From Nisaea sp. (GTDB lineage: Bacteria > Pseudomonadota > Alphaproteobacteria > Thalassobaculales > Thalassobaculaceae): a DNA stretch of 64,000 nt. Both the position numbers and the translations under genes were made by a program. Positions 42,566 through 44,381 of this stretch are shown piece after piece. Every line of letters starts with the position of its first letter. The first letter of the stretch is position 1. A model generated the notes under the pieces. It saw only the letters and a program-made list of their open reading frames with translations, had not been told where the DNA came from and made no database searches. The DNA is taken from assembly GCF_017640745.1 (NCBI RefSeq), contig NZ_JAEPQA010000018.1, forward strand, positions 1 to 64,000, read 5' to 3'.

Positions 42566-42634
42566 GTCGGCTTCCCTCTCCAACGTTCGGCTTCCATGCT
42601 AGCGCAAAACCCGCGCGCCGGTTATAGCGATGGC

Positions 42635-43033
42635 ATGGTGCAGATGATCGAACCGCCGACCCTCGACGATATCGAACGGCTCGCCCGCGAAGCCTTCGCG
42701 ACGATTCCGGACGAGCTCCGCGCGCAGACCGGCGACGTGACCTTTCTGGTGACCGATTTCGCCGAGGACGACGTGCTTGACCAGTTCGAGGCCGAGAGCC
42801 CGTTCGAGATCCTCGGCCTCTATGCCGGCATCCCGTTCGGCGAGGCCGAGAGCATGGCGAGCCCGGCGGACCTCAACCGCATCTTCCTCTACCGCCGCCC
42901 GATCCTCGACTACTGGTGCGAGAGCGGCGAGGACCTGCAAAGCATCGTCCGCCACGTGCTGATCCACGAGATCGGCCATCACTTCGGGTTTTCCGACGAC
43001 GACATGGAAGCCATCGAAGCCACCGCAGACTGA
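42635..43033 (+). CDS. Small zincin-like metallopeptidase family protein
   Basis: A 132-residue protein of the metallopeptidase family PF06262 (DUF1025). It ends with HVLIHEIGHHFGFSDDDMEAIE, which holds the zinc-binding HExxH and a downstream acidic residue. There is no signal peptide, so it should be cytoplasmic. A physiological substrate is not known for the family. The ATG at 42635 is favoured, since the earlier in-frame ATG gives an unrelated tail. It is divergent from the pterin dehydratase. Confidence 0.88.
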   Translation: MVQMIEPPTLDDIERLAREAFATIPDELRAQTGDVTFLVTDFAEDDVLDQFEAESPFEILGLYAGIPFGEAESMASPADLNRIFLYRRPILDYWCESGEDLQSIVRHVLIHEIGHHFGFSDDDMEAIEATAD

Positions 43034-43100
43034 CACAGCGCTCCACGGCTCCGGTGCAGATTGTCGCAGGCCAGAGAGGTTCCTTGAATCGTGCAAATAA

Positions 43101-43123
43101 AGATGCATATTAAATTCATCTTT
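43101..43123. promoter_or_regulatory. NsrR operator (nitric-oxide-responsive) of the haemoglobin operon
   Basis: The half-sites AAGATGCATAT (43101-43111) and AAATTCATCTT (43113-43123) form an 11-1-11 inverted repeat close to the published NsrR palindrome. TTGAAT at 43085-43090 and TATTAA at 43109-43114 (18-base spacing) would put the -10 box inside the operator, so bound NsrR would block transcription. It lies 17 bases before the haemoglobin start codon. The nsrR gene itself ends the operon, suggesting autoregulation. Confidence 0.85.
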
Positions 43124-43140
43124 TAAGAGGGAGACCTCCG

Positions 43141-43596
43141 ATGACTATCGAACCGATCCGAAGCGCGCCCGAACGTCGGGCGGAACTGCAGACACAGGCC
43201 GCCGCGCTCGGGATCGACGAAGGCTATATCGATCGCCTCGTCGAGGCCTTCTACAGGAAGGTCCGGCAGGACGGGATGCTCGGTCCGGTCTTCGCGCGGC
43301 GGATCGCGGACTGGGGGCCGCACCTCACACGGATGAAGGCCTTCTGGAGTTCGGTGGCCCTCAATAGCGGGCAATATTCCGGCAAGCCGGTCCCGGCGCA
43401 TCTCGTGCTGAAAGAGGTTCGTCCCGCGCATTTCGAACGCTGGCTCGCGCTCTTCCAGGAAACCCTCGAAGAGACCGCCCCCACCCCCGGCGCGGTCTTC
43501 CACTTCATGGAGCGGGCGCAGCGCATCGCCACCAGTCTGCAACTCGCCATGTTCGGAGTGCCGGAACTGCAGCGCCCGAAAGGAGAGGGCAAATGA
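43141..43596 (+). CDS. Group III truncated haemoglobin
   Basis: A 151-residue haem protein. The group III pattern is visible: VEAFYRKVRQDGMLGPVF, HLTRMKAFWSSVALNSGQYSGKP, then PAHFERWLALFQETL with the proximal His in the AHFERW block. These proteins bind NO or O2 and are linked to nitrosative stress. AGAGGGAG precedes the ATG. It is the first gene of a four-gene operon under an NsrR operator, so a role in NO detoxification or sensing is well supported by context. Confidence 0.9.
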   Translation: MTIEPIRSAPERRAELQTQAAALGIDEGYIDRLVEAFYRKVRQDGMLGPVFARRIADWGPHLTRMKAFWSSVALNSGQYSGKPVPAHLVLKEVRPAHFERWLALFQETLEETAPTPGAVFHFMERAQRIATSLQLAMFGVPELQRPKGEGK

Positions 43597-43817
43597 TCAC
43601 TCTCAAGATCGTCACCATGCTGGCGCTCGCCGCCACGGCCGGTTTTTTCCTGATCTACCTGACCGCGCTCGAGACCGGCAGCCGCGAGGATGAGCGTCTC
43701 GGTCGGAAATCCTTCCTCGACGAAACCGGCGGCGCTCTGGTCTTCGCCGCACGCGGCGCCTTCTTCGGCTGGATCGCCCTGCTCGTCGTGCTGACCGCCG
43801 TCGATGCCGTCGGCTGA
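43593..43817 (+). CDS. Small two-helix membrane protein in the NsrR operon
   Basis: A 74-residue protein of unknown family. Helix 1 is LKIVTMLALAATAGFFLIYLTAL, a charged loop (ETGSREDERLGRKSFLDE) follows, and helix 2 is FFGWIALLVVLTAV. The loop carries no Cys or His. The start overlaps the haemoglobin stop as ATGA, so the two are co-translated. It may anchor the haemoglobin or support a respiratory NO-related complex. This is inference from position only. Confidence 0.78.
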   Translation: MITLKIVTMLALAATAGFFLIYLTALETGSREDERLGRKSFLDETGGALVFAARGAFFGWIALLVVLTAVDAVG

Positions 43818-43825
43818 AAGGAGAC

Positions 43826-43945
43826 ATGATGAAACATCCCCTCCCCCTCTGGCGCCGGTTCGGACCGATCCTTCTGCTCTGGGTCGCCGCCCCCTTGCCG
43901 CTCTACATCTGGGCCGGGATCTCTCTCGCGCTCGGTCTGAGGTGA
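43826..43945 (+). CDS. 39-residue single-helix membrane microprotein
   Basis: A small open frame begins at an ATG preceded by AAAGGAGA at ideal spacing. The predicted protein starts MMKHPLPLWRRFGPILLL and continues through a hydrophobic helix (LLLWVAAPLPLYIWAGISLAL) to end GLR. The positive-inside rule places the N-terminus in the cytoplasm. It fits exactly in the nine-base to seven-base gaps between its neighbours. No homologue is recognised. Its ribosome site and position in the NsrR operon support that it is real. Confidence 0.7.
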   Translation: MMKHPLPLWRRFGPILLLWVAAPLPLYIWAGISLALGLR

Positions 43946-43952
43946 ACGCGCC

Positions 43953-44381
43953 ATGCGGCTCAACGTGCAGACCGACTATGCGCTGCGCCTGCTGATGCAT
44001 CTCGCGGTCAATACCGGCCGCCTGGTGACCATCAAGGAGGCCTCCGACCGTTTCGGGATCTCGAAGACGCACCTGATGAAGCTCGCCAGCGCATTGACCC
44101 ATGACGGGTTCGTTGAGGCGCTCCGGGGCCGCTCAGGGGGCCTCAGGCTGGCACGTCCGGCGGCGGAGATACGGGTCGGCGAGGTGGTGCGGCGCATGGA
44201 GAACGATTTCGACGTCGTGGAATGTTTCCGGGCCGGGCGCAACGAATGCCTGATTACCCCAGCCTGCCGCCTGAAAGGCGTGCTGCACCGGGCCGTCGAG
44301 GCGTTCCTCTCGGAGCTCGACAGCTGCACGCTCGAGGATCTGGTGAAAACGAACCAGCCGCTTCGTCTGCTGCTCGCCTGA
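43953..44381 (+). CDS. nsrR: Rrf2 family NO-sensing repressor NsrR
   Basis: A 142-residue Rrf2 regulator. The N-terminal winged helix (LNVQTDYALRLLMHLAVN, FGISKTHLMKLASAL) is followed by GGLRLARPAAEIRVGEVVR. Three cysteines at 91, 99 and 105 (VECFRAGRNEC, ITPAC) match the 4Fe-4S cluster ligands of NsrR. NO damages the cluster and releases DNA. The NsrR-type operator 0.8 kb upstream, at the head of the same operon, shows the likely self-regulated target. IscR is less likely given the Cys spacing and context. Confidence 0.9.
   Translation: MRLNVQTDYALRLLMHLAVNTGRLVTIKEASDRFGISKTHLMKLASALTHDGFVEALRGRSGGLRLARPAAEIRVGEVVRRMENDFDVVECFRAGRNECLITPACRLKGVLHRAVEAFLSELDSCTLEDLVKTNQPLRLLLA

Follow-up and report, generated by a model that had tools for sequence, protein, structure and literature searches.

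The 64,000-nucleotide stretch of Nisaea sp. DNA analysed here (the window) carries on its forward strand a compact set of genes that looks like an operon under nitric oxide control. A palindrome of the NsrR type (43100-43122) is followed by genes for a group III truncated haemoglobin of 151 aa (43141-43596), for two membrane microproteins termed TM74 (74 aa, two helices, 43593-43817) and TM39 (38 aa, a single span, 43829-43945), and for an NsrR-like Rrf2 repressor of 142 aa (43953-44381). The two microproteins, referred to below as the pair, were characterised by alignment, dN/dS and AlphaFold2 modelling. A gene for a Zincin_1 metallopeptidase (42596-43033) stops 66 bases upstream of the operator, and a homologue of it is found upstream of the globin in four congeners too.

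The candidate operator was located by a motif scan 18 bp 5' of the globin ATG and reads AAGATGCATATTAAATTCATCTT. The original prediction of a near-consensus NsrR palindrome at the head of the haemoglobin operon is borne out, except that the site had been placed at 43101-43123, one base off. It agrees with our own relaxed consensus at 21 of 22 positions, while the next best place on the plus strand of the 64 kb reaches 16, and its arms are palindromic at 9 of 11 positions. Against another consensus it shows 2 mismatches (0 such sites expected in shuffles). It also conforms to the inverted repeat gATGyAT-N5-ATrCATc given in PMC1274295; one arm reads TTCATC instead of TRCATC. All five congeners possess a box of 19-22/22 that ends 18-20 bp 5' of the globin ATG. 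Shuffled sequence is expected to yield 0 sites at <=3 mismatches, and the 4.5-Mb genome (97% complete, 83 contigs) shows no second operator when up to 3 mismatches to the relaxed consensus are allowed. At that stringency the single operon may thus be the whole NsrR-type regulon, in which case such a regulon would apparently consist of one operon. A simple scan of the window operon for sigma-70-like promoters and for terminators came up empty. In PMC1274295 (2005), Alphaproteobacteria were reported to lack NsrR orthologues, with Rhodobacter capsulatus E1F1 as the exception. NsrR-type boxes are extended to this class by the loci described here, though the regulator misses the curated NsrR cut-off.

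The globin has as its best solved relative the group III truncated haemoglobin of C. jejuni (2IG3, E 3.9e-16; the runner-up is at 2.8e-4), so that its predicted class holds: by sequence likeness it is a group III truncated haemoglobin closest to 2IG3. Its score against Pfam Bac_globin is 17.5 bits, below the gathering cut-off of 21 bits, and a congener's globin (locus L007, genome G017) passes with 24.8 bits. As anticipated from the overlapping or tight spacing of the genes, the globin stop and the TM74 start share the sequence ATGA, and translation of TM74 is therefore probably coupled to that of the globin. Good ribosome sites had been claimed; Shine-Dalgarno-like stretches do precede the globin, TM74 and TM39, but the one before nsrR is weak. 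The single-helix protein had been given 39 residues, which corresponds to the ATG at 43826 (frame 43826-43945). The second ATG, at 43829, is better placed behind AAAGGAG and agrees with the orthologue in the congener G016, giving 38 aa; the 74-residue, two-helix description of its neighbour stands.

The last gene encodes an Rrf2 protein (Pfam Rrf2, E 8.4e-36) for which NsrR is the best-scoring Rrf2 equivalog in NCBIfam (140.6 bits), ahead of RirA (126.5 bits, cut-off 193). The operon thus contains its predicted nsrR in a qualified sense: since 140.6 bits is short of the NsrR cut-off of 182, the regulator is called NsrR-like and not NsrR. Besides the Rrf2 domain it has three cysteines (91, 99 and 105) that could hold a cluster. 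Their arrangement, C-X7-C-X5-C, is the spacing of RirA and not that of E. coli NsrR. The window regulator combines this RirA-like cysteine spacing with an NsrR-type operator. This spacing is also the commonest among the Rrf2 matches at the loci collected here (41/60 rows, duplicate loci included).

The long antisense frames that span the region, usual at 65% GC, raise the question of whether the two small frames are genes or chance open frames in GC-rich DNA. The latter is hardly credible and is refuted by the conservation of TM74 and TM39. In three within-genus pairs each, dN/dS is well below 1 for both small frames, at 0.18-0.44 for TM74 and 0.09-0.25 for TM39, compared with 0.08-0.18 for the globin and 0.04-0.11 for nsrR. 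Among nine Roseibium-group loci (36 pairs), TM74 has a mean pN of 0.153 and a mean pS of 0.610, and TM39 has means of 0.141 and 0.537, with third-position changes predominating. Moreover, a nearly invariant motif is kept in 27 members of the single-span family, and the gene order recurs under NsrR-type boxes. The original prediction, which depended on conservation of the small frames in relatives, is upheld by the congeners G019 and G016 and by several alphaproteobacterial lineages. Judged by their substitution patterns, both small frames are genes under purifying selection.

That the pair matches no known family, as had been supposed, was confirmed against the profile libraries Pfam and NCBIfam. 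The window's own TM74 and TM39 have no Pfam match up to E 1; in NCBIfam, TM74 has one weak match (15.3 bits, cut-off 127) and TM39 none. Bit scores can be set against curated cut-offs for the window's own proteins, while the other members were judged by E-value. The best values among the 28 TM74 members are E 0.01 in Pfam and E 0.0079 in NCBIfam (one member each), and the 27 TM39 members give at best LapA_dom in Pfam (E 0.42) and nothing in NCBIfam, so that neither set falls into a curated family of these libraries. A fold search with TM74 against the PDB gave 7 matches, none with E <= 0.001 and none meaningful. Searches of PMC full texts brought up no paper that describes small membrane proteins encoded together with NsrR and a globin in one operon.

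AlphaFold2 predicts TM74 to be a hairpin of helices 2-35 and 44-73 (mean pLDDT 90) and TM39 to be one span broken or kinked at AAPxP (mean pLDDT 83). Positive charges are unevenly distributed: the mean K+R count of TM74 is 4.64 in the loop and 0.14 and 0.07 in the tails, and the N-tail of TM39 exceeds its C-tail in 25/27 members. By the positive-inside rule, the TM74 loop and the TM39 N-tail would be cytoplasmic and on the same side as the globin. The 28-member TM74 alignment (A3) has the consensus MLxxIVLVAEAL...SMYLDSR..P.LD.AGR.L...(R/K).A, and the motif PxxLxWxAAPxPL[WY] is present almost without exception in the 27-member TM39 alignment (A4). In two genomes of the f148 group (loci L179 and L180) the single-span core is LVPMPLY, and AAPxPLW is thus not universal among the single spans. 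Neither alignment has a His or Cys column conserved to 50%, which makes it unlikely that TM74 or TM39 carries a haem or a cluster. A glutamate in TM1 of TM74, present in 89% of members, was rejected as a functional residue since it is missing in the window's genus.

Homologues of the pair were not easily recovered by single-sequence searches. TM74 alone found nothing in the genome_contigs collection and nothing in plasmids, and a Roseibium homologue likewise found nothing in plasmids. Searches of the class with each microprotein (386 genomes each) mainly returned low-scoring hits within larger frames; the informative hit was locus L025 in genome G212 (E 0.014), recognised by its adjoining globin. 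This locus encodes a globin, the hairpin and a single span with the same core; nsrR is divergent and an NsrR box precedes the globin. A four-row profile run against 249 genomes matched 22 of them at E <= 0.05, of which six have globin plus pair and 16 were set aside, and revealed the block in five more genomes of the order of G212. When the 28-row hairpin profile was applied to the 386 class genomes, five of its 10 matches were accepted (G000, G212, G056, G274 and G666); the remaining five were partial and were left out.

A DNA pattern for the single span, run on the genome_contigs collection, hit 88 loci; 26 of them are single-span frames of the TM39 kind, and the remaining 62 showed no globin. 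Because the pattern requires one motif, it passes over divergent members, L068, L179 and L180 among them. All but three of the 26 are filed under Stappiaceae genera (23 loci; Roseibium, Labrenzia, Stappia, Pannonibacter and Hongsoonwoonella). The hairpin gene is directly upstream in 25/26 (partly cut in one), the 26th being cut at the locus end. A globin lies ahead of the pair in 22/26; of the other four, L127, L132 and L167 are truncated by the end of the locus, and L141 lacks a globin at that position. Several alphaproteobacterial lineages, mostly Stappiaceae, thus keep the hairpin gene followed by the single span. Locus L141 is filed as Oceanobacillus, a label that is probably wrong given its 68.7% GC and an operon otherwise encountered in Alphaproteobacteria alone. 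Duplicate loci were dropped (L069=L089, L070=L138, L025=L065, L169=L066, L001-L003=L004-L006). L127, L132 and L167, as well as L171, enter no alignment or tree, L093 is omitted from A4 because its single-span start is ambiguous, and L178-L180 postdate A3 and A4 and are absent from both. At the 28 best-scoring pair-less globin loci of other genera, no small hydrophobic frame occurs within 500 bases 3' of the globin. The pair is thus a minority accessory and does not go with group III globins in general.

The arrangement around the block varies. The exact order box-globin-TM74-TM39-nsrR, the haemoglobin-TM-TM-nsrR arrangement whose conservation was in question, holds in the window and in G019; in G016 a DUF1971 gene (Pfam E 1.4e-14) is inserted before nsrR, and in the congeners G017 and G018 the TM genes are missing, leaving box-globin-nsrR. 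Outside the genus the globin-TM-TM block is kept, but nsrR is divergent (G212 and most Stappiaceae loci) or upstream (nsrR-globin-TM74-TM39 in L066 and L067), or else the TM genes occur without the globin, either with nsrR (L141 and L178) or alone (L179 and L180). The DUF1971 gene of G016 (L006:2303-2602) is situated between the 38-aa single-span gene and nsrR. Matches to its product also lie near group III globins at L012, L015, L194, L196, L202, L203 and L206, the DUF1971 protein being a recurrent companion of this globin class. Two records titled Stappia indica (L131 and L169/L066) carry the pair with different globins, with nsrR divergent in L131 and upstream in L066.

Nearly all of these arrangements are preceded by an NsrR-type box. 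It is found at 17-20/22 before the globin in 22/25 loci scored, the four weakest of these beating 500/500 shuffles. As to the remaining three, L132 is cut off, while L066 (18) and L067 (19) have the box before the operon-leading nsrR (0/500 shuffles). Boxes also precede the globin-less pairs, with 20, 20 and 18 of 22 at L179, L180 and L141 (0/500 shuffles each); that of L178 is weak (15/22, reached by 32/500 shuffles). In the genome of L141, which has one Rrf2 gene per split half, a second nsrR-like gene stands directly behind a globin (L187), beside the pair-nsrR operon.

The connection between pair and globin extends beyond adjacency. A matching globin is present in 13/13 carrier genomes, and in 4/4 genomes with a globin-less pair locus a group III globin is encoded elsewhere. 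These trans globins have their own box in G274 and G666 (19/22, 0/500 shuffles each) and a weaker one, followed by a second nsrR-like gene, in G686 (15/22, 0/500); in G056 there is no clear box (best 14/22, 49/500 shuffles). The window globin is matched in 104/386 genomes of the class sample (E <= 1e-5), the five accepted pair genomes included. That all five should be globin-positive has a chance of ~0.0014 if relatedness is ignored, a value made less striking by the fact that G274 and G666 belong to one genus and that two of the five have the globin adjoining the pair.

A tree of 71 globins, 27 of them pair-bearing, needs 4 label changes, at least 3 of which are forced by well-supported branches. 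None of 200 bootstrap trees (0/200) needs only one change, and the constraint to a single clade is borderline (AU p 0.043). The tree has several long-branched rows, its pair-less rows are fetched loci, and it does not distinguish gain from loss. Losses may explain part of the scatter, as the window's genus and L066/L067 form one supported clade of 14 amid pair-less globins. L066 is Stappia by its contig, yet both its globin and its hairpin are nearer to those of the window than to those of other Stappia, which suggests that at this locus the globin moves with the pair. The invariable presence of a globin in trans (4/4) and the occurrence of the same pair beside scattered globin lineages, with boxes of one type, suggest that pair and globin share a task. 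At the same time, the globin does not need the pair (G017, G018), nor does the pair need coupling in cis (L141, L178, L179, L180), and this separability in both directions speaks against a complex that is fixed and obligate. That pair and globin are linked genetically and in their regulation is well supported. An NsrR-type, globin-linked microprotein pair is thus real, extends beyond one genome and belongs to no family in the libraries searched; what it does at the membrane can be put forward only as a model.

The operon would constitute a self-contained, autoregulated unit of the NO response, in which the single operator is occupied by an NsrR-like Fe-S repressor. Destruction of its cluster by NO would allow globin, microproteins and repressor to be produced together. 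NO sensing is suggested here by the regulator family and the operator. The hairpin and the kinked single span, three helices in all, would make up a small inner-membrane pair with its positively charged loop in the cytoplasm, their constant co-occurrence and order pointing to a complex of the two. Such a pair would serve the NO or O2 chemistry of the globin at the membrane; the likeliest way is that it holds or feeds the globin close to where NO accumulates, in the lipid phase or by the respiratory chain. The model as a whole we place somewhat below an even chance; recruitment of the globin to the membrane by the pair is its weakest step and is rather doubtful. The original prediction had likewise proposed that the microproteins dock the haemoglobin or tune a respiratory NO target.

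A competing explanation, which we also regard as possible without favouring it, has the pair act on its own on an NO target in the membrane, either as a small subunit that assists or guards a respiratory complex (a haem-copper oxidase or an NO reductase, for example) or as a responder to membrane damage, the globin being simply co-induced. Small one- and two-span proteins are often part of respiratory complexes, the pair does occur alone under NsrR-type boxes (L179, L180) or with nsrR and no adjoining globin (L141, L178), and globin-only operons exist. Nevertheless, a matching globin accompanies the pair in 13/13 carriers and adjoins it in most, and no target gene is evident within ~3 kb around the globin-less loci. 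It is very improbable that TM39 is an NO-induced, CydX- or DUF2474-like small subunit of an NO-resistant cytochrome bd, even if its size, single span and tryptophan-bearing helix resemble those of such subunits and 7/13 carriers have a bd oxidase. Subunit I (PF01654) was not found in the other six carriers (G000, G016, G019, G212, G458 and G056), the window's own genome included, nor in the pair-less congeners. DUF2474 is unmatched at the window locus, with two sub-cut-off hits elsewhere in the same genome, and the TM39 members have nothing closer in Pfam than the LapA_dom match cited above. The missing oxidase in 6/13 carriers excludes a general bd subunit role for the pair, which could have a side role of this kind elsewhere. 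Our best reading is that NO induces the pair as a membrane partner either of the globin or of a target that both share, with docking as the prediction. More specifically, and with considerable reserve, the pair might be an unnamed membrane platform of two microproteins that has no cofactor of its own and recruits or serves truncated haemoglobins of different group III lineages on demand under NO, governed by the same kind of repressor.

Few native partners of single-domain haemoglobins have been identified, and a conserved membrane pair that stands under NsrR-type boxes beside group III globins offers a concrete candidate in the cultured genera Roseibium, Labrenzia and Stappia. TM74 and TM39 further represent two microprotein families that neither Pfam nor NCBIfam contains and whose regulation links them to one signal. 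Among known systems, the oxidase subunits of the CydX/DUF2474 type are short single-span proteins of respiratory membranes. TM39 is equally short and single-span but lacks a profile match, and 6/13 of its carriers lack bd. The idea of a globin that works at the membrane is shared with the Vitreoscilla haemoglobin. Bacterial haemoglobins of this membrane-binding type bind lipids or the oxidase and are not known to involve dedicated small membrane proteins. By sequence, Ctb of C. jejuni (2IG3) is of the same globin class as the window globin, and NO-linked regulation is common to both. Ctb is not known to have a microprotein partner. Its regulator is NssR and not NsrR, according to PMC3820574. 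A further parallel, as described in PMC1274295 and PMC3820574, is the NsrR-controlled glbN-ferredoxin reductase operon of Legionella pneumophila, which like the window operon joins a truncated globin to a partner gene and is apparently the sole NsrR target. The window globin is of group III, unlike Legionella glbN, and whereas the Legionella partner is a predicted reductase and hence an obvious candidate for electron donor, the partner in the window is a pair of microproteins without conserved ligands.
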